From: a virus | Length of the DNA: 64,000 nucleotides | Virus record (IMG/VR): IMGVR_UViG_3300043446_005562 | Coordinates: 186,001 to 250,000 of that record | Strand: one strand, 5' to 3' | Part shown: positions 37,053-60,859 of the stretch, piece by piece | Layout: every line of letters starts with the position of its first letter | How positions within the stretch are numbered: the stretch's first letter is position 1 | Translations under genes and position numbers: made by a program | The notes under the pieces: generated by a model | Database searches by the model: none | What the model saw: only the letters and a program-made list of their open reading frames with translations | What the model was told of the DNA's origin: nothing

Positions 37053-37059
37053 CTAAAAG

Positions 37060-37511: not shown

Positions 37512-37518
37512 TTATTTG

Positions 37519-37591
37519 AGCGGGAGACCGGGTTCGAACCGGCGACCTCAACCTTGGCAAGGTTGCGCTCTACCAACTGAGCTACTCCCGC
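37519..37591 (-). tRNA. tRNA-Gly (GCC)
   Basis: Acceptor GCGGGAG/CTCCCGC, anticodon loop TTGCCAA. CCA not encoded. Confidence 0.93.
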
Positions 37592-37778: not shown

Positions 37779-37851
37779 AGCCTCCTGCCGGGATCGAACC
37801 AGCGACCTACTGATTACAAATCAGTTGCTCTACCAGCTGAGCTAAGGAGGC
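37779..37851 (-). tRNA. tRNA-Thr (UGU)
   Basis: Acceptor GCCTCCT/AGGAGGC, anticodon loop TTTGTAA. CCA not encoded. Confidence 0.93.
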
Positions 37852-37934
37852 AAGATGAACCGTCACAGTGGTTCAGTCTGGTCATTTTCTTCTTCAGTCA
37901 TCGGTAAACCGCGACCTTCTGACGGTGACATCCA

Positions 37935-38011
37935 TGGTGGACCGTGAGAGACTCGAACTCTCGACCCCCTGCGTGCAAGGCAGGTGCTCTAGCCAACTGA
38001 GCTAACAGCCC
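37935..38011 (-). tRNA. tRNA-Ala (UGC)
   Basis: Acceptor GGGCTGT/ACGGTCC, anticodon loop CTTGCAC. CCA encoded. Confidence 0.9.
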
Positions 38012-38017
38012 ATTTTG

Positions 38018-38089
38018 TAGCCCGTACGAGAATCGAACTCGTCTCTCATCCGTGAAAGGGATGCGTCCTAACCGATAGACTAACGGGCC
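38018..38089 (-). tRNA. tRNA-Glu (UUC)
   Basis: Acceptor GGCCCGT/ACGGGCT, anticodon loop CTTTCAC. CCA not encoded. Confidence 0.92.
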
Positions 38090-38093
38090 AAAT

Positions 38094-38210
38094 AAAAACA
38101 TAATACTACTTTAATAGCGCTTACCCAATTTTACAACAGAGCGCGTTACCTTGCTAGACCGTTATTGGGCAACGACTTCTAACAATCCTACCTACCCATA
38201 TTATGTTTTT
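38094..38210 (-). other. Structured spacer closed by a 12-bp inverted repeat
   Basis: AAAAACATAATA (38094-38105) is the exact reverse complement of TATTATGTTTTT (38199-38210). Inside, CCCAAT (38124-38129) can pair with ATTGGG (38164-38169). The element exactly fills the gap between tRNA-Glu and tRNA-Asp and has no tRNA fold or ORF; candidate small RNA. Confidence 0.45.
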
Positions 38211-38211
38211 G

Positions 38212-38283
38212 CGGTCCCACCGGGAATCGAACCCGGCACTTTGCCGTGACAGGGCAATATTATAGCCGATTAACTATGAGACC
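38212..38283 (-). tRNA. tRNA-Asp (GUC)
   Basis: Acceptor GGTCTCA/TGGGACC, anticodon loop CTGTCAC. CCA not encoded. Confidence 0.92.
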
Positions 38284-38482
38284 TTTTGCTCCTTATAAAT
38301 CCTTCCCGTGCACAGAACAAGAAACTGGGGAGACGTTGTTTCTACTTTTATGAAAGGCTTGGGTACCCTCTCCCACCGTTTCGCAGGTTGAAGCGTCCAT
38401 CTCCACGCCGTCCCTGTGGAACTACAGTGGCTGGTTGTTGCGGCATGCTGCGCTGTGATGGAACATTCGCACAAGCATTGAC
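38284..38482. other. Non-coding spacer in tRNA array
   Basis: 199 bases between tRNA-Asp and tRNA-fMet. GC-richer than the surroundings; no cloverleaf or supported ORF. Long open frames here only read through tRNA genes. Possible RNA element, nothing specific seen. Confidence 0.3.
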
Positions 38483-38557
38483 TGGTTGCGGGTGCTGGAA
38501 TCGAACCAGCGATCTTTGGGTTATGAGCCCAACGAGTTACCATTTCTCCGACCCGCG
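38483..38557 (-). tRNA. Initiator tRNA-fMet (CAU)
   Basis: Acceptor CGCGGGT/ACCCGCA has the C1:A72 mismatch that marks initiators, and the anticodon stem has three GC pairs (GGG/CCC) around loop CTCATAA. CCA encoded. Confidence 0.92.
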
Positions 38558-38562
38558 ATGTG

Positions 38563-38633
38563 TTGTCCCGCAAGGATTCGAACCTCAATTCTCTGGACCA
38601 AAACCAGATGTGCTGCCGTTACACCACAGGACA
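38563..38633 (-). tRNA. tRNA-Gln (UUG)
   Basis: Acceptor TGTCCTG/CGGGACA, anticodon loop TTTTGGT. CCA not encoded. Confidence 0.92.
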
Positions 38634-38682
38634 ATTTACTATCTCCAATACGTCAAAGAACCTAATTCTCTTTGTATAGAAT

Positions 38683-38688
38683 ATTATA
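38683..38688 (-). promoter_or_regulatory. Promoter for downstream tRNA cluster
   Basis: Minus-strand AATATAGTATAATATTC, 50 bases before tRNA-Gln, in the only sizeable gap between tRNA-Trp and tRNA-Gln. Confidence 0.45.
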
Positions 38689-38704
38689 CTATATTCCAGA
38701 GATC

Positions 38705-38778
38705 TGGCACGAGTGGAGAGATTCGAACTCCCATCAACGGTTTTGGAGACCGGTATGCTACCATTGCACCACACACGT
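38705..38778 (-). tRNA. tRNA-Trp (CCA)
   Basis: Acceptor ACGTGTG/CACTCGT (one mismatch), anticodon loop CTCCAAA. CCA encoded. Confidence 0.9.
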
Positions 38779-38782
38779 ATTT

Positions 38783-38859
38783 TGGTTGGAATAGTAGGAT
38801 TTGAACCTACGACCTCATGAGTATCAGTCATGCGCTCTAACCAACTGAGCTATATTCCA
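38783..38859 (-). tRNA. tRNA-Ile (GAU)
   Basis: Acceptor TGGAATA/TATTCCA, anticodon loop CTGATAC. CCA encoded. Confidence 0.93.
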
Positions 38860-38862
38860 ATT

Positions 38863-38938
38863 TGGTGGTGCGGGGCAGGATCGAACTGCCGACACCAGGA
38901 TTTTCAGTCCTGTGCTCTACCGTCTGAGCTACCGCACC
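38863..38938 (-). tRNA. tRNA-Phe (GAA)
   Basis: Acceptor GGTGCGG/CCGCACC, anticodon loop CTGAAAA. CCA encoded. Confidence 0.94.
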
Positions 38939-42823: not shown

Positions 42824-43819
42824 TTACGGATAGGGTTCAATATAATTTTCTATTTGATCTACCGATTTACTAAAGACTAAGAGATCATTATCGTAAACCT
42901 CAAATTTTGAAACTCCGCCCCTAATTTCGTTAAAGGTCCATTCACCGTCTATTGTAAAAGTATGCTCAAAAATTTCGTAATTTGAAAAATCGCCGTAGAC
43001 CTTTACCTTTCTGCGTAGAGTGGAATTTTTTCTATTCAAAGAGAATAATATGGTTTGGTCCCCGTATTTGTAAACATCGGTTGAACACTCATGCATTGAT
43101 TCCGGCAAATGAGAATTGGAAATAGACTGATTCCACACAGTATCGTTCAATACTTCAGCCAAATCATTCTCGATGTAAATTTGATCCTTGTCTAATTTAC
43201 TAATGTAATGATACATCAATTTTTCAACAGTAACAAAATCCTGATTACCGTATTCTCTGTTCAATAAATCTGAGTAATCCTGCTCATTTTTTATCTCTGG
43301 AAAGTTATCTAGAAAAAAGTCAATTTCGCTGAAAAAATATTGAAAAGTATTTACCTTAGCTGGCTCATTGATGTAAAATTTGGCCTTTTTACCCGCAGCT
43401 GCACACGCAAGTGGAGTGTCGATAAAATCTTGCAAAGTTCTTTCACCAATCAAAGTATCATATTCAATTCGTCTAAAATGGGTGTAACCTAGGTCCTTTG
43501 CCAGTTTTAAACTTCTGAATAGATTTATGAGCACCGACAGTCCATGCTTTTGAGTGTGAACTTGTAGAGTAAAAAATTTTAGGTCATTAACTACTCTCCA
43601 CAATAAAAATCTCTCATAATTCTCGTATTTGCCTTCAAATAGAGTATTACTCTTGTCGTAGAAAAGATAGTCAACTCGTTCGGCAATGCTTTTATCCAGC
43701 ACACTATTTGTAATCAACAGAACTGGATCAATTGGATTCACCCTATTCAAAAAATTAATCAGCAATTCGTGTTGTTGGTCCCGATCCACGAATGCATCTA
43801 TGATTGTTATTGTCTTCAT
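42824..43819 (-). CDS. Glycosyltransferase-like protein, paralogue A
   Basis: 331 residues. The N-terminal part ([20 protein letters not shown], then LFYDKSN) and the [11 protein letters not shown] segment share a layout with the protein at 46348 (LLIMSHCP...VDFVIYDRFN...VEYDLLPE). Together they resemble GT-A-like proteins in phage and bacterial glycan clusters, the EYD acting as DxD-like metal site. C-terminal beta domain ~230-331. First letters of a co-translated island; overlaps the FkbM gene by 4 bases. Confidence 0.55.
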
Positions 43820-44661
43820 TGTTTTATAGCTAATGTATCAATACCAAATTCAATGATTTTATAATTTAAACTCTGTAAATAGTCAATACACGGTTGATAA
43901 GTATTTATGAATTTAGCATGTTCATTTTCAAAAATAATGAATTTGGGCAAGTACTTTAAGCCCATAATCAATTCAGCATCATAACCTTCAATATCAGTAT
44001 GCAGCCAATCGTACTCTTGATAGTTATTGGACTCAATGAGTTCATTTATTGAAACGCTTTGCCTTTTTTCGGTCAAGATCTCTTCGTCTTTCAAGAATCG
44101 CTGATTTACCTGCTTCACGACCGAGTCTGTGTATCCCGCTCCGCCCGTGTGCCATTCAATTAATCCACCGTCTACTGTTACAATTTCGTTTACCAGGGTA
44201 CAGTTGGCTAGGCCATCATAATTTTTTTGTAACTCTTTAAATTGAGGCTCGGAACCCTCTATGATTATGCAATCTGTGTCTTGATCCCTTACCGATTGTA
44301 CCCAATGTCCCCAAACTCCATTGTGAGATCCTATAACAATGCCTTTGGTATTCTTGTTATATTTACAATAGAAATTAAAGAATTTGTCCAAATCTCCACC
44401 GTCGTATAGCGAATTGTATTCTCTGGTAAAAATAACATTTCTCTGTTGATCCATGACAGTTATGTTCCATCTACTATTGCCGCCGCCATTCCATTCTGAC
44501 CAGTGGCCTGGTAACAATTGAGTTTCCCAGCCCTCTCCAGCCAGATCATTGAAACTAACGATCAGGGGTTCTTTTATTATGAGAGCCAGCGCAGGATCTA
44601 ATTCTATTTTAAATGTAAAAAGCTCAGGATTCTGCTGATTGTGCAATTTAAAGTGTATCAT
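43816..44661 (-). CDS. FkbM-family methyltransferase
   Basis: 281 residues. SAM-binding region CIIIEGSEPQFKELQKNY, then SVSINELIE and DWLHTDIEGYDAELIMGL, the FkbM signature where IEG/EGYD follows the core strand. Likely O-methylates a sugar hydroxyl. ATGA overlap with the neighbouring gene. A TATACTATG-type promoter may lie just upstream. Confidence 0.8.
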   Translation of the reverse strand: MIHFKLHNQQNPELFTFKIELDPALALIIKEPLIVSFNDLAGEGWETQLLPGHWSEWNGGGNSRWNITVMDQQRNVIFTREYNSLYDGGDLDKFFNFYCKYNKNTKGIVIGSHNGVWGHWVQSVRDQDTDCIIIEGSEPQFKELQKNYDGLANCTLVNEIVTVDGGLIEWHTGGAGYTDSVVKQVNQRFLKDEEILTEKRQSVSINELIESNNYQEYDWLHTDIEGYDAELIMGLKYLPKFIIFENEHAKFINTYQPCIDYLQSLNYKIIEFGIDTLAIKQ

Positions 44662-44735
44662 AGTATATTGTTTGTTTTATTAGCGTTTGGTTCTTTATTT
44701 TACTATTAATAATGATAAGGATCTTATCCATTTTA

Positions 44736-45638
44736 TTAGAGTAATTTTTCTTCCCAGTACTGCACGAAACTGTTTATAGTTTTTTGATCTATTTTTTCCA
44801 ATTCCTGTAAATGATTTCTAACCAAGCCGACCGTATCATTAGCCCATTTTAAATCATCTAAGCCATAGGCTACTCCAAACATTTGAGTAGGATTGCTTAA
44901 TCTATATTCCAACGGAGTAGTGTTTTTGTCCGGATTCAATATTATTGATTTACAACCGCATAAAGCGGCCGCTGCAGTAATATATGATTTAGAATCAAAT
45001 GTGACCAAATACTCAAATTTATTAAATTCATCGGATAGTTCACTGAATTTACCATCAAGCATCAAACTAGTTAAATTTTTTGCATTGAATTTATCAACAA
45101 AATCTAAACCCCAGTCTGGAGTGTACTTATGATTGATAAAACAAAAACCATTTCTTTTAGCGTTTTTGCTAGTGTACGTTTCTAATTTATAGTCAGTTAC
45201 AATTAATTTTTGCTGTTTTATATTTTTTGGTACAAAAAAGGATCCATAATTGTATATTAGATCAGTTTCGTCATAACTTTTCCATTTTTCATGATCATCA
45301 TGTAAAATCCATCTACACGTATGTATTGTTCCAAATGGATTGTGCCACGTATTTTGGTTGTATATTGAAATGGTTTTATGTAGATCATACGCAAACGGCT
45401 CCCAACTAAACTCCGAATCCCAAGGATTACCTTTTTCTTCAGTCTTTGAAGTTGGAATCGTATTAATATTTTCATGGGGATAGCACGGTTCATCAAAAAC
45501 ATATACAATGTGTCCTCGATTTGCTAACTCATAGGCCAGTTTGTGAACTGCGATTGAACCTCCCCTATTTTCAAAACCAATAGAACATAGCGTATCAACG
45601 ATAAATGTTAGCTTTCCTTCCTCGTTTTTTAAAAGCAT
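44736..45638 (-). CDS. Glycosyltransferase-like (GT-B type)
   Basis: 300 residues. The N-terminus (ENRGGSIAVHKLAYELANRG) is typical of GT-B enzymes that gate a donor/acceptor cleft; the C-terminal part has KFEYLVTFDSKSYITAAAAL and a Cys-x-Ser/Thr-x-x-x-N-type donor site (GCKSIILNPD). Family not certain. In an AT-richer stretch than most of the window. Confidence 0.6.
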   Translation of the reverse strand: MLLKNEEGKLTFIVDTLCSIGFENRGGSIAVHKLAYELANRGHIVYVFDEPCYPHENINTIPTSKTEEKGNPWDSEFSWEPFAYDLHKTISIYNQNTWHNPFGTIHTCRWILHDDHEKWKSYDETDLIYNYGSFFVPKNIKQQKLIVTDYKLETYTSKNAKRNGFCFINHKYTPDWGLDFVDKFNAKNLTSLMLDGKFSELSDEFNKFEYLVTFDSKSYITAAAALCGCKSIILNPDKNTTPLEYRLSNPTQMFGVAYGLDDLKWANDTVGLVRNHLQELEKIDQKTINSFVQYWEEKLL

Positions 45639-45640
45639 AG

Positions 45641-46351
45641 TTATTTTTTCTTTAAGACTATTTTTAAGTTATCATAGTGATCGTAGTGATTACCAATTAA
45701 CTCCCATTCTATTCTGCCAGCCAGCGCCTCTTGATATAGATGTGCGCCCTTGCCGATCATTGGATATTGAATAGCTACATTACTCTCGGTTCCATTCTGA
45801 AACCATTGTAGCAAACTATTATTTCTCCAATTGTCATCAATTATTATGATACTGCCAGGTTTCATCAGCCTCTCGATTGCTGTGAATTCTTTCCATACAT
45901 GAAGCGCGCTCGGAAAAGGATCGAACAGCTGAAAATCATAACTATCTAGATGAATGATATTTGGGATGATTGGAGGAGTCTTCAAGAATTCTATTGAGTC
46001 TTGACAATAGGTTTTGTACTTTAGATTAGGTAGTTGAGTTTTAAAAATAATTTCACTATTTTCGCAGGCTGACTGATCTAGATCGACCGAATGCATTTGC
46101 CCACCGTATTGATCTATTGCGTGCGCAAAAAATAATCCAAATAGTCCATACTCCAGATGACCACTAACGCCAGTTTCTATTAAATTAATTTCGTCAAATT
46201 GAAAATTCTCGGAAAGACAATCGACTAGTGTGTTCATCTGACGTACTCTTAACTGATATCCCTTATGATTATAATAGTCTTCTACCTTATCCTCAAGATA
46301 TTGATTGTACTGTACAATTGAATTCAATAGGATCTGCTTCAAATTTTTCAT
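45641..46351 (-). CDS. SAM-dependent methyltransferase-like
   Basis: 236 residues. Motif I-like LIETGVSGHLEYGLFG, an acidic strand end MHSVDLDQSAC, QDSIEFLKT, and IIHLDSYDF then GSIIIIDDNW. The arrangement is that of class I methyltransferases acting on sugars. Coupled to the following gene by a 4-base overlap. Confidence 0.7.
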   Translation of the reverse strand: MKNLKQILLNSIVQYNQYLEDKVEDYYNHKGYQLRVRQMNTLVDCLSENFQFDEINLIETGVSGHLEYGLFGLFFAHAIDQYGGQMHSVDLDQSACENSEIIFKTQLPNLKYKTYCQDSIEFLKTPPIIPNIIHLDSYDFQLFDPFPSALHVWKEFTAIERLMKPGSIIIIDDNWRNNSLLQWFQNGTESNVAIQYPMIGKGAHLYQEALAGRIEWELIGNHYDHYDNLKIVLKKK

Positions 46352-47325
46352 GATGTAATTTGATTTTTTTGAATAAGGAAGTTTTTACTTTTGAACAACT
46401 CTAAATTAGTTTCATTTAATTCTACCGACTTGGTTAGAGTATCATCAATATAAATTTTTATCTTGATAGGCAAAGTCATTTCACAAAGTCTTGTCATTGT
46501 CCACGACGATGGCGGCGGACACGAGTATGTACGAATAGTATCGTTGACTGAAACTGCAATATTATAGTTTCCGCCATGCTCATTGTAGATGAACAGCTCT
46601 AAATGATCAGCTGTCGTATTGTATATTGGAATGACCCAATTCAGGCCTCTAGAATTATGAGAATCTATTAAATCTATTTTTCCAGAAATTTTGACCAGAT
46701 TCGAAACATCATAATGATACACACTTCGGTTGTTTGAGACTAGTCTTGAAAAAATATGCTCAGTATGTTTGGATTCAGATTCACGTAACTCATTGATGAT
46801 TTTTTCATTAGTCATTGGTGATTCAATTTCTAGATTGTCTACTCGAAAAGCCCAGTATGGGCCATGCGTCCAACCTATTTCAAAGTCTCTGACTAAAACC
46901 GTATCGTAATCTATTAATATTTTACTTGCATCAGTGATAGCTTTAAGATTCTCTGGCAGTAAATCGTACTCAACATAGTGTAAATTTCGATAGCCATTGA
47001 ATTTTGCAAAATTAATTGAATTATAGATCATTCCGTATACGGCCAAATGAGTGCTCTTTGAGAAGATCAATGTTGAATTTATAAAAAAATCAGGGTGATT
47101 AAATTCAAAAGAATTTGTAAGATCAAAGTCTTCAAGAATATTGTTGAATCTATCGTATATTACAAAATCAACAAGTTCACAAAAGGTTTCACCAATTGGG
47201 CAATGACTCATTATCAATAAATCGTAAGACTTTCGATAGTCCTGTAATTTTAATAATAACTCAAGTAAGATTTGCCTTTTTTCCGGAGTCGGACAGTGCG
47301 CCGAAATTGCTATTAGTTCTTTCAT
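46348..47325 (-). CDS. Glycosyltransferase-like protein, paralogue B
   Basis: 325 residues. SYDLLIMSHCPIGETF, VDFVIYDRFNNIL and HYVEYDLLPENL parallel the gene at 42824 and phage-type GT-A proteins. The middle (WTHGPYWAFRVDNLEI) could bind the acceptor. C-terminal beta domain. ATGA overlaps on both sides. Confidence 0.55.
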   Translation of the reverse strand: MKELIAISAHCPTPEKRQILLELLLKLQDYRKSYDLLIMSHCPIGETFCELVDFVIYDRFNNILEDFDLTNSFEFNHPDFFINSTLIFSKSTHLAVYGMIYNSINFAKFNGYRNLHYVEYDLLPENLKAITDASKILIDYDTVLVRDFEIGWTHGPYWAFRVDNLEIESPMTNEKIINELRESESKHTEHIFSRLVSNNRSVYHYDVSNLVKISGKIDLIDSHNSRGLNWVIPIYNTTADHLELFIYNEHGGNYNIAVSVNDTIRTYSCPPPSSWTMTRLCEMTLPIKIKIYIDDTLTKSVELNETNLELFKSKNFLIQKNQITS

Positions 47326-47918
47326 ACTTTAAGAGCGGGAGTTCCAATATAGGTTCCAGGTTGATCGATATTTTTAGTTACGCCAGCGTTCATTCCAATT
47401 ACAGCATCATCACATACTGATAATTTTTGTTTGATACATGATCGAGTACCGAAGTAAACTCGATTACCGATCGTTTCATTTCCTGAAATTTGTACACCTG
47501 GTGCAGTTGTAAAATAATCTCCGATTATGCAATCATGACCGATTGTAGTTATTAAATTTATGTGAGCGTGTTTACCTATTTTTACATTAGTTGTTATTAT
47601 AGAGCCAGCGCAAATAATGCTACCTTCCCCAATTTCAACGTCCGGCCCATGAATTTGAGCGGACGAATTGATGTGAGTAAAAAATTTAGTATTGGCTGGC
47701 AAACTTTCTACGATTCGCTGTCTGTGATTTGAGTCAGCTATTGCGACGACTAACGTATATTCAAGAGGATCAAATTTAGATAGAGGTAGAATCAGTGGAT
47801 CACTTCCATTAAAGTATGCATCATCTACGAAAAAAACCGTATTTTCTCGTTCACTCGGGTTTAGACTCCAGTATACTTCTCTACCAAATCCTCCTGCTCC
47901 AACTATTCCCTTTCTCAT
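47322..47918 (-). CDS. NeuD-family sugar O/N-acyltransferase
   Basis: 198 residues. N-terminal nucleotide-binding-like GAGGFGREVYW (7-17), then left-handed beta-helix hexapeptide repeats (IGEGSIICAGSIITTNVKIG, NLITTIGHDCIIGDY) with the catalytic His in IGHD. Acylates an amino sugar, the amino group being likely placed by the adjacent aminotransferase (4-base overlap). Confidence 0.9.
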   Translation of the reverse strand: MRKGIVGAGGFGREVYWSLNPSERENTVFFVDDAYFNGSDPLILPLSKFDPLEYTLVVAIADSNHRQRIVESLPANTKFFTHINSSAQIHGPDVEIGEGSIICAGSIITTNVKIGKHAHINLITTIGHDCIIGDYFTTAPGVQISGNETIGNRVYFGTRSCIKQKLSVCDDAVIGMNAGVTKNIDQPGTYIGTPALKV

Positions 47919-48544
47919 TGATTATAAATTTCAAATTTTGATAGATCCGGATATGGCAATTCTAGATCTGCCTGTTTTTTCTTGGAACCATCGAGATTGT
48001 AAAACTGATTCATTAATAAAAGACCTCGAGCCGCCAGTTCAGGCATCATGTAAAAATTCCAACCGAGCATGTCAAAGTGATCATCATGATACGAACACTC
48101 TCTACGACCAGAATATCTTGCACGTTTGAACCAATGATATGCTTCTAAGTTATCGGTTAAGATTGCACCGCCCTTACTTAATTTGAAGTGCTTGTACGGC
48201 CCAGTGAATGAAATACACATGTGAGTGCCGGGCTTGTACATGTCAGCAGTGAAGCTCAGTGCTGAATCCCAAACTCGGGTTGGTTCTAGTTGATACGCGC
48301 CTTTGATTGTTTTGCCCTCAACTGGTCTAAATTTAACCTTTGCACCAGCGTGAATGATTTCGCATGGGACTGAAGGATAGGTTCTGGCCGGAATGGTTAT
48401 CTCCTGACCAGTAACTTTTTCATAGTAGAGCGCAAGGAATAGAGCATTACTTTGATTATCCACAGTAATACAGTAAGGTGCACCAGTGTAGTCACATAAA
48501 GCTTTTTCAAAGTCTTCGGTTATTTTATAGACACCATTTGCCAT
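47915..48544 (-). CDS. Compact DegT/DnrJ/EryC1-type aminotransferase
   Basis: 209 residues, about half the usual ~370. The PLP domain is present: CITVDNQSNALFLALYY, TIPARTYPSVP, W-D-S-A-LSF and CISFTGPYKHFKLSKGGAIL with a candidate Schiff-base Lys in PYK/LSK. The C-terminal small domain is nearly absent. Would aminate a keto-sugar. Either a streamlined phage form or partly degenerate. Confidence 0.7.
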   Translation of the reverse strand: MANGVYKITEDFEKALCDYTGAPYCITVDNQSNALFLALYYEKVTGQEITIPARTYPSVPCEIIHAGAKVKFRPVEGKTIKGAYQLEPTRVWDSALSFTADMYKPGTHMCISFTGPYKHFKLSKGGAILTDNLEAYHWFKRARYSGRRECSYHDDHFDMLGWNFYMMPELAARGLLLMNQFYNLDGSKKKQADLELPYPDLSKFEIYNQ

Positions 48545-50109: not shown

Positions 50110-50298
50110 TTACTTTACTGTTGGAGTGCAGCATGCAGCAGTATCAGCTTTTGTTGCAGCTGAGTCTACTACGGTCGAGTCAACTTTAACTAGAGTTGAG
50201 TCGGTCGCATTGGCTGTTGCTTCGGTGGTTCCTGTGGTGCAGCTAACTGCGAACATTGTCGCGATAGCGATAGCAAAGATTGCTTTTTTCATAGTCAT
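50110..50298 (-). CDS. Small Thr/Ala-rich lipoprotein
   Basis: 62 residues (ATG at 50292 is an alternative start). Signal KKAIFAIAIATMFAVSC with lipidated Cys20; the mature part is Thr/Ala/Asp-rich with a final CC. A one-gene transcript with its own TATAAT promoter and strong terminator, as expected of an abundant early product such as an exclusion lipoprotein. Function unproven. Confidence 0.65.
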   Translation of the reverse strand: MTMKKAIFAIAIATMFAVSCTTGTTEATANATDSTLVKVDSTVVDSAATKADTAACCTPTVK

Positions 50299-50826: not shown

Positions 50827-51657
50827 ATGGCACTTCTAAAAAACGGATCCTCTGGCCCAGAGGTTTCTAAGCTCCAGTCATTCCTGGGCATCCCAGCGGA
50901 CGGCCAATTTGGTCCAGGTACCGAAGCAAAGGTAAAGGAATGGCAGGCTGCACACGGGTTAAAGGCGGACGGTATTGTTGGAGAGGACACTCTTGCAAAA
51001 ATGCTTGGAACACCGGCCCCAGCGGCACAATCTCAAACGACGATTCCAGCGTCAAGTTTCAAACTGGAAAAATTAAAAGGGCATGTGCCCGATGCAGTCC
51101 TGGCTCAGATTCCTGACACGGCTGCAAAATTCGGAATTACTAATGTTTTAAGATTAGCTCATTTCTTGGCTCAATGCGGTCACGAATCCGGCGGATTTAA
51201 GGCGGTTAGTGAGAACCTAAATTACTCAGCGGACGGTCTAAAAAAGATCTTTCCAAAGTACTTTCCCGGCAATCTAAACGAGTCCTATGCCAGACAACCT
51301 GAAAAAATCGCTAACCGCGTCTATTCTTCAAGAATGGGTAACGGCGACGAGACCTCAGGCGATGGCTTTAAGTTTAGGGGCCGCGGCTACATTCAATTGA
51401 CTGGAAAGTCTAACTATTCAGCATTTGATAAGTTCGTGGACGACGATATCATCGGTAATCCAGATCTAGTATCCACAAAGTATCCATTGGCATCAGCTGC
51501 TTTCTTTTTTAACAATAACGGTCTATGGACGGTTTGCGATAAAGGAGCTGACGATGCAACGGTTACTGCAGTTACCAAACGAGTTAACGGTGGAACCATT
51601 GGATTAGAGGATCGTCTAAAGCACTTTAAGGAGTATTATTCTCTACTAACTACTTAA
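50827..51657 (+). CDS. GH19 chitinase-like endolysin with peptidoglycan-binding domain
   Basis: 276 residues. N-terminal peptidoglycan-binding repeat (~1-60: SGPEVSKLQSFLGI, DGQFGPGTEAKVKEWQ). GH19 domain from ~80: HFLAQCGHESGGF with catalytic Glu120, then FRGRGYIQLTGKSNY. No signal peptide, so it needs a holin or other release; a holin-like gene lies at 53963. First gene of the plus-strand cassette under an exact late motif. Confidence 0.93.
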   Translation: MALLKNGSSGPEVSKLQSFLGIPADGQFGPGTEAKVKEWQAAHGLKADGIVGEDTLAKMLGTPAPAAQSQTTIPASSFKLEKLKGHVPDAVLAQIPDTAAKFGITNVLRLAHFLAQCGHESGGFKAVSENLNYSADGLKKIFPKYFPGNLNESYARQPEKIANRVYSSRMGNGDETSGDGFKFRGRGYIQLTGKSNYSAFDKFVDDDIIGNPDLVSTKYPLASAAFFFNNNGLWTVCDKGADDATVTAVTKRVNGGTIGLEDRLKHFKEYYSLLTT

Positions 51658-51671
51658 AATAATTTTAAAAA

Positions 51672-53600
51672 ATGAAGAATTTCTTTGTCGGATTAATAAT
51701 TGTACTTGCCTCTCTGGTTGGGTCCAACCCAGCCTTTGCTCAATCCGGTCCACCCGCTCCAGGCTGGGGGATCTATGCTCTAATCGACACCACCTATCAA
51801 GTTGGAACCTATTCGCAGGGTGTATCCCATGCAAAGATCACTCTTAAGAACAGCGTTACCACAAAATACACAGGTGTTCAGTTTAGACTCTTTTACGATA
51901 AAAACGCGTTTGCCTCTGCCTCAGTTGCACTAATTGGTTCAGCAACGAACCTTGACCTGCAAGCGGTTGACAATAACGCAAACGGTTATGTTACCATTTC
52001 TTTGGTTTACACGGGTAACAGCGCAACCTACACAATACCGGACGGCGAAAGATTTGACGTGACGTTCACTCACGTTGCGCCCAATGCCTTTTTTGGCTTA
52101 GCTTCAATCTCTAACCTAACCTGGTCCGGTGCACAATCATACAGCCAATACGCATCATCTCAACCTGGTCTAGATACCGTGCTTACTCTACACAGCTACA
52201 ACGGGCAATGGTTAAGGGATACCCTAAAATTCCACGGCACATTCACCAACGTTACCGGCTCACCCGCTAAAAACCTAACACTTTCTCTTGAAAAGAAGGT
52301 AAAGGTTGGAGGTACCTGGTCCCAGCACGCTGCCTATACTACGAATCTACAGGGTAAATTTTCAATCGCTGAATTGATTGACACAACCTATTACGATGTT
52401 CGCTTGGCAATCAAGGGCGATACGATGGGAGTTGGTAATGTAATCTCAACCGCTGATGCTCAACTAATTAATCAGTGGATTCTAGGCAACGGTACTCCAC
52501 AGGCCTGGGATTTTTATACTGGAGATATTAACGGCTCAAACGGTTTGACCATCACCGATGCCTATGGAGTTTTTGGTAGAATCTCTGGCCGATTCAACTC
52601 TTGGCCCAATGGCGTAAAGGATCTTAAGTTCTTTACTCAAGCCGAGTACGCTGCAATCACAGGCTCGCCAAATACAAACTACACCGCAACCTATACCGGC
52701 ACAACCAACTTCTACTACAATATTTTACCAGGTCAGCCAGATTCGGTTAATTATTATGTGTTGGTACCGGGCGATGCAAACGGTACAGGCTATCACATGG
52801 CTCGTTTGACACCTATCACGATCCTGCCAACGCCCAATCCCAATTATCCATCTCAATTGGAAAACATAATTGACATGACCGCTGAATACGACTTTCCAAC
52901 CGATCATGTTGAGATCAACATGCCTTCAATTAAGGTTACAGCCGGCAATCTGGTTGAAATTCCAGTAACCGTTAAAACCTTTGGTAAGCAGATCTCATCT
53001 CTACAATTGGGAATGTTATACGATTCAAGCGCTCTTGACTTTAAAGAATTAAGCAATTCGGACAAATCAATGCTGTGGCTCTCTTCAATCAATCCAATGG
53101 ACGGTATGGTTGAATGGTCGGGTTACGATCCATCTGCAAACAAGGACTACATGATTCCGGACGGCTACAATATCTTTACTCTTAAATTCATAGCTAAACA
53201 GCCACAATCAAACTGGTCTCAATCACCACTATGGACAACTCGTAAATTTACGGGCGATGCTAATTCCAAGGACATGAGCGTGACACCAACTAATGGAATC
53301 TTGATTGTTGCAAAGATGGCCGCTCCAATCGGTCCAAACGAGGCCGAGGAGTCAATGATCGTCTATCCTAATCCAACGACCGGCGATTTCAGCGTTAACT
53401 TCACAGTTAAGAACAGCGGTCACGTTACCCTCTACATTCTAAATAACCGCGGTATAGTTGAACACCTAATCTTAGACAAGGACATGCCAGAAGGAAACTA
53501 CGTTTACTCTTCAAACATTTCTAATCTAGCTTCAGGTCTTTACATTGCAACTCTACAGCAAAAAGGAGAGGTGAAGACCTCAAAAATTATTAAAGAATAA
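51672..53600 (+). CDS. Large exported protein with cohesin/dockerin-like parts and T9SS sorting domain
   Basis: 642 residues. Signal peptide 1-23 (cleavage A23|Q24). Beta domain ~30-165 of cohesin type; dockerin-like repeats ~240-300 (ISTADAQLINQWIL, DINGSNGLTITDAY); a second cohesin-like domain ~400-510 (VTAGNLVEIPVTVKTF). The C-terminal ~80 residues (ESMIVYPNPTTGDFSV, then SNLASGLYIATL and KTSKIIKE) are a T9SS type A sorting domain. The protein should be exported and attached to or shed from the host surface. Role in the phage cycle unknown. Confidence 0.85.
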   Translation: MKNFFVGLIIVLASLVGSNPAFAQSGPPAPGWGIYALIDTTYQVGTYSQGVSHAKITLKNSVTTKYTGVQFRLFYDKNAFASASVALIGSATNLDLQAVDNNANGYVTISLVYTGNSATYTIPDGERFDVTFTHVAPNAFFGLASISNLTWSGAQSYSQYASSQPGLDTVLTLHSYNGQWLRDTLKFHGTFTNVTGSPAKNLTLSLEKKVKVGGTWSQHAAYTTNLQGKFSIAELIDTTYYDVRLAIKGDTMGVGNVISTADAQLINQWILGNGTPQAWDFYTGDINGSNGLTITDAYGVFGRISGRFNSWPNGVKDLKFFTQAEYAAITGSPNTNYTATYTGTTNFYYNILPGQPDSVNYYVLVPGDANGTGYHMARLTPITILPTPNPNYPSQLENIIDMTAEYDFPTDHVEINMPSIKVTAGNLVEIPVTVKTFGKQISSLQLGMLYDSSALDFKELSNSDKSMLWLSSINPMDGMVEWSGYDPSANKDYMIPDGYNIFTLKFIAKQPQSNWSQSPLWTTRKFTGDANSKDMSVTPTNGILIVAKMAAPIGPNEAEESMIVYPNPTTGDFSVNFTVKNSGHVTLYILNNRGIVEHLILDKDMPEGNYVYSSNISNLASGLYIATLQQKGEVKTSKIIKE

Positions 53601-53616: not shown

Positions 53617-53946
53617 ATGTCAGAAGAAACAAACGTACAGGATCAAAATGACGGCACCTGGTCAGGTCTCAAGAAAACCTTGATCGCCACTTTAACTACC
53701 GTAATTACGGGAGGCGGTGTCTGGTTGGGAACCTTCCTTTATGGGGGGCATGAAGAACCCAAGGCCGAGCCAAAAACTGAACAGGCAGCACCAGCTCCTG
53801 CACCAGTTATTGTTAATGTTCAGCAAACTCAAGAGAACACTCAACAACAAAAAGCGGGTGGAACAACAACAATCATCAAGGAAAAGATTGTTGAGAAGCC
53901 AGCAAAGAAAGAAAAAAAGAGCGAGACTGAAGACTCTCCTTGGTAA
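53617..53946 (+). CDS. Membrane protein with Pro/Ala/Gln-rich tail
   Basis: 109 residues. One hydrophobic helix (~19-42, TLIATLTTVITGGGVWLGTF) and a disordered, finally basic tail. Gene context between exported protein and holin-like gene suggests an envelope role; possibly a TonB-like or spanin-like linker across the periplasm. Confidence 0.5.
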   Translation: MSEETNVQDQNDGTWSGLKKTLIATLTTVITGGGVWLGTFLYGGHEEPKAEPKTEQAAPAPAPVIVNVQQTQENTQQQKAGGTTTIIKEKIVEKPAKKEKKSETEDSPW

Positions 53947-53962: not shown

Positions 53963-54319
53963 ATGTCACTGAAAAAACTCTTAATTGGCGAAAACGCCTA
54001 CGTTAAGGTGGAAGACAAGAATCGCTTCTACTATATGTTACAACAAATGCAGGCCAATCGTTGGAAGATTACAGCGATCGTGTTGGGCCTGTTCTTCTTT
54101 ATTATTTTAGGTATCAATTCAGCCGTTTTCTTTGGAGTTACAATCCAAGAATCATGGAAGGAAATGTTACTAATTTTATTGGGAGCGTTTGTTGGTAATC
54201 TAAACAAGGTTGTTGATTACTGGTTTAATTCAGAAGATCGCGACAAGATGCTGATTCAAAAGGTAGATGAAGAGGACGGAACTTCGCTATCAAACGTAAC
54301 AACAAATAGCCCAGAATAA
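53963..54319 (+). CDS. Holin-like membrane protein
   Basis: 118 residues. Two transmembrane helices (~32-56 and ~62-80: ITAIVLGLFFFIILGINSAV; LLILLGAFVGNLNKVVDYW) with both ends charged and likely cytoplasmic. The G-A-F-V-G-x-x-x-x-V-x-x-Y-x-F sequence after the second helix is common in phage holin-type proteins. Located four genes' worth of sequence after the endolysin in the same transcript. Confidence 0.6.
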   Translation: MSLKKLLIGENAYVKVEDKNRFYYMLQQMQANRWKITAIVLGLFFFIILGINSAVFFGVTIQESWKEMLLILLGAFVGNLNKVVDYWFNSEDRDKMLIQKVDEEDGTSLSNVTTNSPE

Positions 54320-54320: not shown

Positions 54321-55040
54321 ATGAAAAAGCTAGCAATACTCTTTGCGCTTTTCCTAAATTCAGCCATGTGTGTTGCTCAGATTGGTTCAATCAAGTCTGA
54401 GCAATACCAAGCTGACTTTGAAAAGAAAATGTCGCTTGACTCTGTGCCCGAATACAAGGACACAATCAAGATTCCCGTGCAGATTCTAAAAATTGGAATC
54501 AGCTCGGATCTTTACGAAATGTATCCAGAATTAAAGGACAAGCGTGTTGGACTTGGTGTTACCAATATTGTGTTGGAATACCTAGAGTACACCAACCGAT
54601 TCGTCTTTACTGAGGATAAGTTGGAGATTAAGGAGCGCATGATTAATCAGTTCAAAGCATCGGACAAGGGATTCACCGAGAACAAAATGGACGGTCGTGG
54701 TAAGATCAAACTTGCAAAATACTTTGTCTATATTGAAGTTTACGATTTTTCGGTGTCAGACGATGAGGTTGTGAAGGTGAACGGCCAATCGCAAACAACC
54801 CAAATTACGAGACTTGGCTTACAGGTTAAATTCGTTGATGCTGAGACCGGCGAAATCATAATGGGCTCAGGACTGGGCGAGGCCAAGACAGTAAAAACGG
54901 TTTCAATCTTGGAAGGTATTGACGATACTGAAATTAAATTTAATCAATCCCATATTGGTATAACCACCAAAAAAGCTTTGGAAACCGCTGCTGCTCGAAT
55001 AGTTAATCGCATGATAAAAAAGGGAATTTTTAAATCTTAA
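54321..55040 (+). CDS. CsgG-like outer-membrane secretion protein
   Basis: 239 residues. Signal peptide 1-19 (MCVAQ, cleavage before Gln20). The mature part has the CsgG family order: a N-terminal strand region, GLGVTNIVLEYLEYTNRF, FSVSDDEVV and VKFVDAETGEIIMGS, then a terminal helix (ALETAAARIVNRMI). In curli, CsgG forms a nonameric channel for amyloid export. The lipidated Cys seen in E. coli is not clear here. Stop and next start overlap by 1 base. Unusual in a phage. Confidence 0.65.
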   Translation: MKKLAILFALFLNSAMCVAQIGSIKSEQYQADFEKKMSLDSVPEYKDTIKIPVQILKIGISSDLYEMYPELKDKRVGLGVTNIVLEYLEYTNRFVFTEDKLEIKERMINQFKASDKGFTENKMDGRGKIKLAKYFVYIEVYDFSVSDDEVVKVNGQSQTTQITRLGLQVKFVDAETGEIIMGSGLGEAKTVKTVSILEGIDDTEIKFNQSHIGITTKKALETAAARIVNRMIKKGIFKS

Positions 55041-56623
55041 TGCATGTCAAGAAAATCATATTCATACTATTTTTAATTATCTCAAATGTTGCAATCGGTC
55101 AAATCAATTATTCATACATTGACCCTTGTACTGGGATAAAGAAAACAATTCAGGTGCCGTCTAACGGCGTGACCGTTACCTATTACGGTCAAATACACAC
55201 ATTTCAACCGACCGATTTTTACAGCGGAGTTTTTGAGAATTGGGCAAATGGCGTTTACGCATCATTCGGCTCCAATAATCCATGCGCAAGCATTGTCGGC
55301 ATGCCAACCGGTCTAACCGTTGCTCAGAGCAGCGCGTTGAATTTTCTAGGAATAATTAATTCGCTCGATGCGGTCAAGGATTTAGCGGGAGGAGGAACGA
55401 ATTTTCTTTCTGGTACAATTGAGAGTACTAAAAAATCTGAAAAAAAGGAAAAGAAAGATGATAATACTAACTCTACTTCTGTTAATGCTGGTGCCGCTAG
55501 CGGTCAAACTGGTAATTCGGCAACATCGCCGCAATCTGGGAATAAAGGCGAAGCTCAATCGGCTGGTGGATCTCAAGGCCAATCTGGAGGCGAGGCTCAA
55601 TCAAGCGGTGGGAGCCAACCGGCTAGCCAAAAGCCTGATCAAACGGGCGGATCTGGATCGGGCCAAGCTGGCGGAGGAAGCGGATCAAACGGCAGCGGCT
55701 CACCACAAAATCCAGGATCGGAAACCTCAGGTGGATCAGCCCAGGGATCAACAACCGGATCAGGTGGACAAACAACTGGCTCGAGTTCAAATAATAGTTC
55801 AACTTCTCAAAATGGGTCTTCCTCTGGAGGAGGCTCACAGGGAGGCGGACAAAATGATGCAACAAAAAAAGTAACCACAACACCCGCTGGGGAATCCAAA
55901 ACGGATCAGCCATCTGGCTCGGGTAAAACCGATCTGGTTGGATCGTCAGTTAATAATGTGCAGCGAGTTGATGCAAAAAACGGCAATCGACCCAATATCA
56001 TAGCCTCAAGCGATTTTGTTGGATTTAATTTTAAAAATTCAGATGTCTCATACGGCGGTAAATTTACCGGAGGCTATACCTCAGCCAGATGGGACGGCGC
56101 TCGAGCTCATGGACTACTCATTGACTACACGACCGCACTAAAGGGTCCAAACATTAGCGGCTTCTATGCATTCATTAAGCCCAAAAGAATTGACCTTATC
56201 TCAACCACGCTAACTCTTGGTCTTGACATAAAAAAATCAATTTACGGAACGATTGCGCTGGGTCAAATGTGGGATATCAACAAGAAGAAAAACGTTAAAG
56301 CTGTTTATCTTTTAACTGGCTCTTACGGTAGTGTCTATGATCAAGCATTCATTGGTACGGCAGCAATTGCGGGCGGCATGTGGGATCTTAAACTCGGTAA
56401 AAGAATTGATGCTAAAATAATGGGTCTCTATGTTTACGCACCGTATGTTAGCTATTACAACGATATTTTGCTAAAGTCGCCTCACGTTGTTTTACCAATT
56501 CTTGGGTGCAATATTAAAATCACAAATAAATTCAAGATAAACATTAACGGTGGTGGCGCTTGGGCTCTAAAAGAAAACACCCTAAATTACACAGTAATGA
56601 TGGGTACCAGATTATTGTTATGA
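55040..56623 (+). CDS. Exported protein with Gly/Ser/Gln linker and beta-rich C-terminal domain
   Basis: 527 residues. Signal peptide 1-20 (IG|Q). A small N-terminal domain (~21-120), then ~160 residues of Gly/Ser/Gln/Asn-rich repeats (~140-300), then a beta-rich domain of ~200 residues with alternating strands (GGKFTGGYTSARWDG, LISTTLTLGLDIKKSIYGT) that looks like an outer-membrane barrel and ends in MMGTRLLL. The linker may be extended at the cell surface. No family assigned. Confidence 0.6.
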   Translation: MHVKKIIFILFLIISNVAIGQINYSYIDPCTGIKKTIQVPSNGVTVTYYGQIHTFQPTDFYSGVFENWANGVYASFGSNNPCASIVGMPTGLTVAQSSALNFLGIINSLDAVKDLAGGGTNFLSGTIESTKKSEKKEKKDDNTNSTSVNAGAASGQTGNSATSPQSGNKGEAQSAGGSQGQSGGEAQSSGGSQPASQKPDQTGGSGSGQAGGGSGSNGSGSPQNPGSETSGGSAQGSTTGSGGQTTGSSSNNSSTSQNGSSSGGGSQGGGQNDATKKVTTTPAGESKTDQPSGSGKTDLVGSSVNNVQRVDAKNGNRPNIIASSDFVGFNFKNSDVSYGGKFTGGYTSARWDGARAHGLLIDYTTALKGPNISGFYAFIKPKRIDLISTTLTLGLDIKKSIYGTIALGQMWDINKKKNVKAVYLLTGSYGSVYDQAFIGTAAIAGGMWDLKLGKRIDAKIMGLYVYAPYVSYYNDILLKSPHVVLPILGCNIKITNKFKININGGGAWALKENTLNYTVMMGTRLLL

Positions 56624-57804
56624 GAAAACTTATATTACTGCTAGTTACGGCGATTGCGCTTTCAATTACACTCACGGCTCAGCCTTTTACCTATTCAGGT
56701 TACGTTTACGGCGCAAACGGCCAGGGTCTTCAAAACATTCCGGTCAAACTGTTTGGCAAACGAACTGACCCATACGAGATTAGCTTTCCAACCTACAGCC
56801 CAGCTGGTGCATTTAATTCCGGCACGGTGATTCCATCTTCCGACGACGCGACTCATGGACCCTTTAATATAGGCTTCACCTTTAGCTTCTTTGGTAATAA
56901 CTACACCCAATTCTATGTTGGGTCAAACGGCTGGATTGGTTTTTCTTCTGCTCAAACAACAGGTTATACTGCTCAATACATTCCAAATGCAGGTTCGCCA
57001 AAGAACGTTATCATGGCGGACTGGGAAGACCTCTATCCAGGTTCAGCCAATATCTACTACACAACGGTTGGCACTTCGCCCAATCGTAAATTAATAGTTT
57101 CATTCAATGCAGTGCCGCATTACGGCTGTCGTACTAATCTGCACACATTTCAATTTGTGCTGTACGAATCAAGCAATGTGATTGATGTCTATTATCAGGA
57201 CAAGCCCCTGTGCTCAGGCAATAACTCAACCGCAGGCTTGGTCAATATTGATAATACGAATGTCGTACCGGTTGGCGGCAAGAATGCCTCTGCCTGGTCG
57301 GCGACCAATTACGCAGTTCGATACACGCCAGCCGTGCCGGAAACTTCTTTTTCGCTAAAGGGTACCTATTCAACCAGTGCAACCGGTCAATACACAATAA
57401 ATCCAAATCTGGATGCACAGTCTTATCAATTTGAAATTCGACTAGAATCATTATCGGTTGCATTACCTACACCGACTGATGCGCAATATCCAACCGAGAT
57501 AAGTCTCTATAATATTACGCCAACCTCCAAGCTCTATTACACGATGGACGTCAACGGCGATGGCCGATTCACGGTCACGGATTCATACAATATCTATGCT
57601 CGCATAAATAACAGACCAGGTTTTTGGATCTCTCCAATTGCAGACTATCGAATATTCACACCAGCCCAGTGGACCACAATTAATTCAGGCACCACTGACA
57701 TGAGGGGTACGATTCCCGGTGTTCAGTCAATGATCATCTTCACTCCAACAAACGGTGGTTCAACCAATTTTTATCTGTTGAGAACTGGCATAAAAACACA
57801 ATAA
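56620..57804 (+). CDS. Exported nidogen-like protein with dockerin-type loop
   Basis: 394 residues from ATG 56620, chosen because it opens a signal peptide (MRKLILLLVTAIALSITLTA, then Q) and overlaps the previous stop as ATGA. Residues ~60-215 (GFTFSFFGNNYTQFYVGSNG, VIMADWEDL) match an extracellular nidogen-like domain; ~300-325 (YTMDVNGDGRFTVTDSYNIY) is a dockerin-like calcium loop. No T9SS tail. Could pair with the cohesin-like domains of the protein at 51672. Confidence 0.65.
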   Translation: MRKLILLLVTAIALSITLTAQPFTYSGYVYGANGQGLQNIPVKLFGKRTDPYEISFPTYSPAGAFNSGTVIPSSDDATHGPFNIGFTFSFFGNNYTQFYVGSNGWIGFSSAQTTGYTAQYIPNAGSPKNVIMADWEDLYPGSANIYYTTVGTSPNRKLIVSFNAVPHYGCRTNLHTFQFVLYESSNVIDVYYQDKPLCSGNNSTAGLVNIDNTNVVPVGGKNASAWSATNYAVRYTPAVPETSFSLKGTYSTSATGQYTINPNLDAQSYQFEIRLESLSVALPTPTDAQYPTEISLYNITPTSKLYYTMDVNGDGRFTVTDSYNIYARINNRPGFWISPIADYRIFTPAQWTTINSGTTDMRGTIPGVQSMIIFTPTNGGSTNFYLLRTGIKTQ

Positions 57805-57809: not shown

Positions 57810-58271
57810 ATGAAAAAACTAATCTTTACCCTATTAATTTTTATCTCAACCCAAGTCACGGCCTTTTCCCAAACTGATCGATGTTTTAGCATTGATACTG
57901 TGTACTCAACTGCAAAGTTTAGAGAATTGGGCAAACGCGATATTAGGTTCGGTGTCAAGCAGATGACCGAGGAATTGATCTCTGAGAAGTTCTGTATTAA
58001 GCCAGGGTCGTCAAGTGTCAAGGTTGAAATATTCTATTTTGGCTTGCCGAGAAAGGAACTTAGGCTGCTTGGAGTTGGACGAGAAGAGGCAATCACGCAG
58101 GTCGGAATCAGGCTGCACATTGATGGTAAAGCATACGAGGGCTATGGCGAATCGGAAACTGAGATTAGAACAATAATGTTGGAGGTGGTGGAAGAGTCTG
58201 TACCTTTTTCCAAAATGACTCTGTCCAATTCCATTAAAAAAGCCCTGGTTCAATGCGTTTCGCAATTATAG
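57810..58271 (+). CDS. Small exported protein (CsgE-like position)
   Basis: 153 residues. Signal peptide 1-20 (AFS|Q). Mature part alpha/beta with VEIFYFGLPRKELRL and two cysteines. Its position after the CsgG-like gene would fit a periplasmic accessory, but no CsgE/CsgF sequence signature is visible. Overlaps the next gene by 19 bases. Confidence 0.5.
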   Translation: MKKLIFTLLIFISTQVTAFSQTDRCFSIDTVYSTAKFRELGKRDIRFGVKQMTEELISEKFCIKPGSSSVKVEIFYFGLPRKELRLLGVGREEAITQVGIRLHIDGKAYEGYGESETEIRTIMLEVVEESVPFSKMTLSNSIKKALVQCVSQL

Positions 58272-58714
58272 CTCTAATCGTTTGGCTGGCAGCTGGCTCA
58301 GCACAGGCTCAAATTCAAATACCCGATGTGGGAGACGGCTGGCGACCAAAGGTCGACTCGGCGATTGCTGTGATTAAGGCCCATGATCCAGTCGCTCACA
58401 AGCGCCTGCTTGAAAACTGTAAATCGATTCAATTCATTATCGCGGGAGAGTCAACCACTCAACCGCCCAGCGTAATTGCAATATCGGTAAACGACATGCG
58501 ATTAAACTCAATCAACAACATTGCTGCCATTCTGGTACACGAGTCGTATCATTTGTACATTGCAAATCAGGGCATAAAGCTTGATCCAAACGTTGAGGAG
58601 TATCAGGCCTACTCAATAGAATATGAATTTTTATTTAAAATTCCTGACCTTGAGGATTGGCTATTCGAGAATGCGCTCAACCGCATGCTCTATTATAAAT
58701 CCAAGATAAAATGA
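58253..58714 (+). CDS. Exported HExxH metalloprotease-like protein
   Basis: 153 residues. Signal peptide MRFAIIALIVWLAAGSAQA before Gln20. AAILVHESYHLYIA contains HExxH (HESYH), with EEYQAYSIEYE 20 residues on as a possible third ligand. Similar to small peptidase-like proteins; may cut a periplasmic or envelope target. Confidence 0.6.
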   Translation: MRFAIIALIVWLAAGSAQAQIQIPDVGDGWRPKVDSAIAVIKAHDPVAHKRLLENCKSIQFIIAGESTTQPPSVIAISVNDMRLNSINNIAAILVHESYHLYIANQGIKLDPNVEEYQAYSIEYEFLFKIPDLEDWLFENALNRMLYYKSKIK

Positions 58715-59528: not shown

Positions 59529-60119
59529 ATGAATTACACAAGAGAACAAATTGAAAAGGCGGTCAAGGCCAAGGGTTATGCATGGTTTGAGGGCGCAAAG
59601 GACTATGATGTCAATATTGTTGGTATTAGAAATTCTAGCACCGGCCAAAAGGTCACTAACGTGTTTGATGATCTGTTGACCGTGTCCTATAAATTAAACG
59701 GTGAATGGCACTTTCATGCCTGGGCCGCAACAACCGATCCCGGTAAAAAGGGGGTTATGGAGTATCATAATGCAGCTGGCGTTGCTCGACTGGTTGAGGG
59801 TCAATATCGTGGATCGCATGCAATCGGTCTACACCAGGGTAAGTACGAAGCCCTAAAGCAGGCTAAAAACGTCAAGGTGTATCGCGATGCAAATCGTGAT
59901 CTAACTTACGATGAAACCAAAATTCAGGAAGGAATCTTTGGAATCAACATTCACAAAGCTGGAGCGGACTCAACCTATGTTGAAAACTGGTCAGAAGGTT
60001 GTCAAGTATTTAAAAAGTCAGCGGACTTTGATCAGTTCTTGGCCATCTGTAAAAAATCACAAGCAATTCACGGTAATTCCTTTACCTATACGCTAATTGA
60101 ATCTGCGGACATTGTATGA
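59529..60119 (+). CDS. Conserved phage protein with L,D-transpeptidase-like HxxG..SxGCQ motif
   Basis: 196 residues, no signal peptide. GINIHKAG then NWSEGCQVF near residues 140-165 matches the pattern of YkuD-type catalytic sites (His, then S-x-G-C). The remainder (TVSYKLNGEWHFHAWAATTD, GQYRGSHAIGLHQGKYEAL) is conserved in phage proteins of unknown role. Perhaps a murein-active enzyme complementing the GH19 endolysin. Only gene of the group, with the endolysin and the two membrane proteins, that lacks a signal peptide. Confidence 0.6.
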   Translation: MNYTREQIEKAVKAKGYAWFEGAKDYDVNIVGIRNSSTGQKVTNVFDDLLTVSYKLNGEWHFHAWAATTDPGKKGVMEYHNAAGVARLVEGQYRGSHAIGLHQGKYEALKQAKNVKVYRDANRDLTYDETKIQEGIFGINIHKAGADSTYVENWSEGCQVFKKSADFDQFLAICKKSQAIHGNSFTYTLIESADIV

Positions 60120-60859
60120 GATTAATATTTCTATTACTACTAATTATTCCTATTGAAGCCTTTAGTCAAACTAAGGGCTTCATTTCAATAGGTGGCGATT
60201 GGAATTCAGGTAACTTTCAGTCGATTGGCCTGACACTGCGGTCGGAGATTAAAAAGGACAGTGGCAACTATCAATGGGCGATTGCGCCCAACTTTAGATG
60301 GAGCGAACAGTCAAAGGTTGGTGGAGGAGACCTAAATCTCTATGAGAACGAGCTCTACTTGACAGGTAATTTGACACGATCATTGGTCAAGAGCTGGAAG
60401 GTGATAGGCTTTTCCGAAAACGAAAAATCCTATTTAAGAAAAATAGACTTGCGATCAGCTGCTGGTTTTGGAATTGGGGTTGATCTACTCAATCTAAAAG
60501 GAGTTCGGCTCTCAGTGTCTGAACTTATTCTACCTGAATACTATTGGTCAAGCCTGAACACTGAACTAAATAACTTTACGGTTAGGGGCTCGACCCGATT
60601 CAAGCTTGAGATCAGCGGTAAGATTTTAAAGTTCTCATCAGTCAATCTAATTCAACCGGCCATCTATTCAAGTCGACAGGTTAGCTTTGCGGATAATCTA
60701 AACATTCGCAGTAATTCTTCAATCTCTACCAAGTTAAAGGATCGCTATGAGGTTGGTGTGTTACATACCTTAACCTATCAGGGATATCCCTACTACATCA
60801 ATAAGACGATTGTGCCAATGCAACAGGGCGCATCCATCTTTGTTAAGTGTACTTTTTAA
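60116..60859 (+). CDS. Outer-membrane beta-barrel protein (DUF481-like)
   Basis: 247 residues. Signal peptide 1-17 (AFS|Q), then repeating amphipathic strands (FISIGGDWNSGNFQSIGLTL, NYQWAIAPNFRWSEQ) resembling DUF481-type barrels, ending FVKCTF. ATGA overlap with the previous gene. Ends 1 base from the convergent thioesterase gene. Confidence 0.65.
   Translation: MRLIFLLLLIIPIEAFSQTKGFISIGGDWNSGNFQSIGLTLRSEIKKDSGNYQWAIAPNFRWSEQSKVGGGDLNLYENELYLTGNLTRSLVKSWKVIGFSENEKSYLRKIDLRSAAGFGIGVDLLNLKGVRLSVSELILPEYYWSSLNTELNNFTVRGSTRFKLEISGKILKFSSVNLIQPAIYSSRQVSFADNLNIRSNSSISTKLKDRYEVGVLHTLTYQGYPYYINKTIVPMQQGASIFVKCTF

Follow-up and report, generated by a model that had tools for sequence, protein, structure and literature searches.

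Does a phage protein that ends in the sorting domain of the type IX secretion system (T9SS) use the secretion machinery of its host, or was its gene recently captured from one? Both possibilities had been raised in a preliminary description, made from the sequence alone, of an open reading frame in a 64,000-nucleotide stretch of viral DNA (hereafter the window), which corresponds to positions 186001–250000 of a 252,618-base phage record. The phage origin assumed there is borne out by genes for DNA polymerase, portal, topoisomerase II, two RNA ligases, an endolysin and 19 tRNAs in the window; 13 of the tRNA genes form a cluster on the minus strand (37059–38938). The reading frame itself (51672–53600, plus strand) runs from ATG to stop and encodes a 642-aa protein, here called T9; its coordinates and the motifs VYPNPTTGDFSV, SGLYI and the terminal SKIIKE had been quoted correctly.

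Sorting tail and domain architecture of T9

We searched T9 with profile HMMs, the check suggested in the preliminary description, and recovered the proposed type A sorting domain in full. TIGR04183 matched aa 564–642 over profile positions 1–72 of 72 (40.1 bits against a cut-off of 23 bits; E = 2.7e-10), which removes the lack of an HMM hit as an objection, and PF18962 matched the tail at 39.4 bits (cut-off, 27 bits); these scores are far past chance level. Across the 252,618-base record, T9 is the sole TIGR04183 match. The modelled tail (aa 561–642) aligned over 75/75 residues (Z 10.4, rmsd 2.4) with 8glk_D, the tail of the substrate NucA bound in a Flavobacterium T9SS complex, and phmmer matched the T9 tail to the T9SS substrate tail 8glj_D (E = 6e-4), which the family profile also recovered. 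T9 combines three features that mark T9SS type A cargo, namely a C-terminal sorting domain, an N-terminal Sec signal peptide and a substrate-like tail fold. The type B tail profile TIGR04131 (cut-off, 35 bits) gave no match in the genome of the window, but the controls likewise gave none anywhere. Type B cargo does accompany the type A scaffold in some relatives (L001:7740–9926 and L121:16033–18225; TIGR04131 54.2 and 47.8 bits).

The first reading had overlooked the N-terminal signal peptide as well as two domains of cohesin fold and one dockerin-like module, which emerged from profile comparisons and an AlphaFold2 model built from 58 phage homologs (mean pLDDT, 86.3). The order of the domains is cohesin, dockerin-like module, second cohesin and sorting tail:

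51672..53600, plus strand: T9, a phage scaffoldin with a T9SS type A sorting domain (open reading frame; TIGR04183, PF18962 and PF00963 all above cut-off; AlphaFold2 model)
51672..51740, plus strand: Sec signal peptide, with the cleavage site before Gln24 (sequence MKNFFVGLIIVLASLVGSNPAFA/Q); this signal-peptidase +1 residue is invariant in 58/58 homologs
51759..52229, plus strand: cohesin-fold domain 1 (aa 30–186; VIA match to cohesin 6kgd_A)
52230..52421, plus strand: beta-sandwich X-like module (aa 187–250; strands in the AlphaFold2 model)
52422..52601, plus strand: dockerin-like module (aa 251–310) with a second Ca-loop of the type DxNxS...TISD (D285, N287 and D296 invariant)
52884..53297, plus strand: cohesin domain 2 (aa 405–542; PF00963, and 2xdh by VIA)
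53361..53600, plus strand: T9SS type A sorting domain (aa 564–642) and stop codon (TIGR04183, PF18962, 8glk_D, 8glj_D)

Cohesin 2 was recognized by sequence as well as by fold: PF00963 matched aa 414–542 at 44.8 bits, above its cut-off, and was found in 51/58 family members, the family profile matched cohesins at aa 405–542, and VIA aligned the model with 2xdh at Z 11.9 (model range, 411–572). T9 is the sole PF00963 protein in the whole genome. For cohesin 1 the sequence score fell under Pfam's cut-off, and VIA aligned it with 6kgd_A over 140 residues (Z 14.4, rmsd 2.7 Å). The likeness between the two T9 cohesins rests on structure, since their sequence comparison was not significant. The dockerin-like module was matched by the family profile to the ScaB dockerin 4uyp_B (E = 7e-4, aa 244–308) and Dockerin_1 was detected in 20/58 family members; its second calcium loop is canonical and its first degenerate, and the dockerin-like modules of window proteins score below Pfam's cut-off. 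Taken as a whole, aa 30–306 aligned with the cohesin–X–dockerin structure 4fl4_I at Z 14.2, but with an rmsd of 10.3.

Conservation and distribution of the family

T9 relatives were found at 70 IMG/VR loci and in four records of the cultured Flavobacterium phage immuto. A protein of the same family from an uncultured Caudovirales phage (UniProt A0A6J5M064; 636 aa, 55% identical to T9) already bears the name 'Secretion system C-terminal sorting domain', and we found no description of its function in the literature searched. Among the aligned homologs, whose identity to the window protein goes down to 42% (divergence up to 58%), PF18962 was matched in 58/58 and TIGR04183 in 57/58. Conservation of the tail is low overall (mean, 0.51) while Pro566, Pro568, Gly594, Gly608, Gly622 and Tyr624 are invariant, a pattern expected of a sorting signal. 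Across 23 independent close pairs, dN/dS was ~0.13 in the tail versus 0.08–0.10 in the cohesins and other domains, so the tail is under purifying selection. With a simple rule, not SignalP, signal-peptide-like N-termini were called in 88/94 unique homologs. The suggestion in the preliminary description that the phage uses host secretion during infection therefore stands at the level of sequence, where it is well supported, every aligned homolog carrying the Sec signal peptide and the type A tail together.

We then looked for T9 in cellular genomes. Scanning 84,980 species genomes with short peptide patterns, which diverged relatives could escape, recovered a single full-length relative. It lies on a MAG contig of 16.5 kb that also carries p11 and, from the cassette described below, p9 and the holin-like, CsgG-like and barrel genes; the contig therefore comes from a phage and was binned with a bacterium. 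The contig RFPL01000028.1 (L149), labelled as a Sphingomonadaceae MAG, belongs to a phage of the T9 lineage, and this MAG is therefore contaminated. A profile search of 395 Bacteroidota genomes with the first 400 residues of T9 gave no full-length match and one match limited to the dockerin region.

The T9 cassette and the modular dock2 protein

T9 is followed by a series of small and exported proteins on the same strand, and an endolysin gene lies upstream:

50827..51657, plus strand: endolysin with peptidoglycan-binding and GH19-like domains (PHROG 181, E = 2.5e-68; PF01471, PF00182)
53617..53946, plus strand: small protein with one transmembrane segment, starting MSEET (138/148 loci, nearly always adjoining T9)
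53963..54319, plus strand: optional holin-like protein with two transmembrane segments (hydrophobic segments; 73/148 loci; weak family matches)
54321..55040, plus strand: secreted outer-membrane protein of CsgG fold (signal peptide; model pLDDT 73.6)
55040..56623, plus strand: exported protein with a signal peptide, a Ser/Gly/Asn-rich linker and a probable C-terminal beta-barrel, as judged from its sequence
56620..57804, plus strand: dock2, an exchangeable binding domain joined to a constant C-terminal X-dockerin-like module (hhalign, domain exchange)
57810..58271, plus strand: small exported protein p8 (116/148 loci; signal-peptide-like in 65/65 unique homologs)
58253..58714, plus strand: small exported protein p9 with an HESYH motif (94/148 loci; signal-peptide-like in 52/52)

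The order from T9 through the MSEET protein, the optional two-segment protein, the CsgG-like protein, the linker-barrel protein, dock2 and p8 to p9 is kept in most of the 148 fetched loci, a number that includes some contigs fetched twice. By the same simple rule, predicted export signals are common in the cassette: a signal-peptide-like start with Gln at +1 was found in 87/94 unique proteins for T9, 82/83 for the CsgG-like protein, 70/72 for the barrel, 61/69 for dock2, 58/65 for p8 and 49/52 for p9, compared with 47/765 background ORFs of ≥150 aa. Family searches gave no convincing match for the MSEET protein and no match for the linker-barrel protein, which is kept in the cassette and has a signal-peptide-like start in 72/72 unique homologs. 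A scan for Bacteroidota-type promoters (TTTG-N17-23-TAnnTTTG) returned 5 matches versus 3.06 expected and was uninformative. Beside the cassette, a DUF481 outer-membrane protein with a signal peptide (60116–60859, plus strand) is a further exported phage protein, and close to the endolysin lies a 62-aa candidate lipoprotein (50110–50298, minus strand; lipobox AVSC), possibly an outer-membrane lysis protein.

The CsgG-like protein was found by fold comparison only: the 22 best PDB matches to its model were all CsgG (best E = 5.4e-6; VIA Z 10.4), while Pfam's CsgG gave no match at E up to 1 and the profile of the CsgG-like protein itself none in a PDB sequence search. The protein works at most like CsgG, because it has no lipobox Cys and its predicted mature N-terminus is Gln. 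It is 60–90% identical across the lineage (60% in immuto) and more conserved than its neighbours.

dock2 links the cassette to T9 itself, since its last 190 aa are homologous to aa 185–395 of T9 (hhalign, 99.9%). The remainder is modular: in two loci (L135 and L132) that share 93% of T9, the dock2 proteins (569 versus 359 aa) can be aligned over the final 179 aa only, and the parts swapped across otherwise close phages include C-type lectin, laminin-G-like, GEVED and Ig_7 domains. dock2 is also the best dockerin candidate outside T9 in the genome, with a score below the cut-off. With one Pfam cohesin protein and dock2 as the best other dockerin candidate, a predicted cohesin–dockerin pairing of T9 with dock2 is attractive but unproven, given the sub-threshold score and degenerate first calcium loop of the dockerin-like module.

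The cassette is also present in immuto, a cultured T4-like myovirus (gp20, gp23 and sheath annotated) with Flavobacterium sp. LMO8 as host. Here the T9 counterpart is split into two ORFs (L004:11598–13422) that both have a signal peptide; the second consists of a cohesin and a T9SS tail (44.8 bits). The cassette lies at 10.5–16.4 kb beside replication genes, and the head and tail structural genes lie at 119–160 kb. Its occurrence in a cultured phage, away from structural genes, excludes an assembly artefact for the T9 family and disfavours a role in the virion.

Proposed function, alternatives and known systems

We propose, with a probability of about 0.62, that T9 is a phage cell-surface scaffold that passes through the host Sec and T9SS pathways, holds dockerin-type partners and remodels the surface of the infected cell. 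In an infected Bacteroidota cell, Sec would take T9 across the inner membrane and the host type IX system, which would read the type A tail, across the outer one; T9 would then stay attached on the cell surface, where its cohesins may hold dockerin-type partners such as dock2 and possibly other T9 copies. dock2 would thereby display a variable lectin-like or other binding domain on the infected cell, to which the same cassette would add the CsgG-fold outer-membrane protein and the probable barrel. The likeliest purpose, which is speculative, would be remodelling of the infected-cell surface by masking receptors against competing phages or by sticking to neighbours; we infer superinfection exclusion or clumping, and favour these over lysis because exchangeable lectin-like domains imply ligand choice. 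More generally, a protein of this type, built for T9SS export, is a standard gene of a large group of Bacteroidota-infecting viruses and probably serves as a scaffold for their other surface proteins.

T9SS tails are a feature of Bacteroidota, where cohesin or lectin cargo also exists, and this would suit a host cargo gene captured recently and without a function in the phage. Such an origin, the second one offered in the preliminary description, does not hold up and is highly improbable: the full-length relatives found were phage-borne only and sat in the conserved phage cassette, and the body of T9 was not found in the 395 Bacteroidota genomes. Given the many deeply diverged relatives in conserved gene order across phage contigs, and the strong purifying selection on T9, the gene is not a host gene in transit and not a recent host capture. 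A decoration or fibre protein of the virion, its tail merely an Ig-like domain serving the particle, is also unlikely. Phage surface proteins often have such an all-beta, multi-domain build, distant Ig-like matches are many, and in one locus (L002) the T9 gene directly follows those for the major capsid protein and PhoH; however, the family-wide signal peptide would take the protein out of the cytoplasm, where virions assemble, the immuto cassette sits among replication genes far from those for head and tail, and the T9 tail keeps the T9SS consensus, beyond a mere Ig fold. We found no virion proteome of immuto in the literature searched. Capture and virion function were both ranked low once tested against the signal peptide, the position of the gene, its conservation and the genomes of hosts.

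Two further explanations were considered. The scaffold and the CsgG-like pore might form a late set that weakens or plugs the outer membrane and so times lysis, in keeping with the endolysin and holin-like genes that adjoin T9 in the window and with the proposal that the CsgG of phage Melnitz times lysis in the manner of a pinholin or secretin (PMC9004378). We consider this improbable, to about the same degree as a virion role, as the endolysin varies in position and strand among relatives while the T9–CsgG–dock2 core is fixed, and lectin-like modules and T9SS export are a poor fit. T9 might instead bind to itself, cohesin to dockerin-like module, and the resulting polymer would coat the cell surface with phage-encoded protein; the presence of both modules in one chain and the lack of a second PF00963 protein in the genome would suit such a polymer, but dock2 is an equally good partner, and we rate its chances as low, if anything marginally lower than those of a lysis set.

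Phage-encoded T9SS cargo is not unprecedented, as it has already been published (PMC7468147, PMC6949934). In Cryophage, T9SS type A sorting domains occur on the products of variable genes (endoglucanase, GH39 and PA14), for which hijacking of the host system was proposed and superinfection exclusion suggested (PMC7468147); unlike these, T9 is a single cohesin/dockerin protein that belongs to the conserved core and has its place in a fixed cassette. A crAss-like phage likewise combines a T9SS sorting domain with beta domains, but in a single ORF of BACON repeats without cohesin or dockerin (PMC6949934). Cellulosomal scaffoldins (CipA, ScaA/ScaB) have the order of cohesin, X-like and dockerin modules and the folds in common with T9, which in contrast is phage-borne and has a T9SS tail, with no enzymes or cellulose-binding module found. 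A CsgG-fold outer-membrane protein also occurs in a small conserved operon of other large phages, the pelagimyophages and Melnitz (PMC7029224, PMC9004378), where its purpose is unexplained and 'sibling capture' (aggregation) has been suggested (PMC7029224); no T9SS cargo or scaffoldin was reported there, and CsgF was not recognized in the window cassette. Within the literature searched, the scaffoldin architecture, the status as a conserved and selected core gene and the linked cassette of CsgG-fold protein and dock2 appear to be new.

If the proposed surface scaffold is correct, export through a host-specific secretion system would be a standard, selected step of a phage lineage and not an accident of gene capture. 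A broader reading, which we advance tentatively and regard as doubtful, is that infection by these large, T4-like phages of Bacteroidota gives the cell, throughout the lineage, a second surface specified by the phage. A T9SS-exported cohesin/dockerin scaffold would carry an exchangeable lectin and, together with a CsgG-type pore, act as a modular shield or glue, determining which phages and cells an infected cell encounters. immuto on Flavobacterium sp. LMO8 offers a testable cultured model for the rebuilding of infected-cell surfaces by lytic phages, and the T9 cassette may be relevant to the CsgG operons of marine myophages, which are still unexplained.

Apart from the cassette, the window contains a sugar- or surface-modification-like island on the minus strand (42824–48544) with an FkbM methyltransferase, a PglD-like hexapeptide acyltransferase and a partial DegT aminotransferase of 209 aa, which is possibly broken or trimmed.
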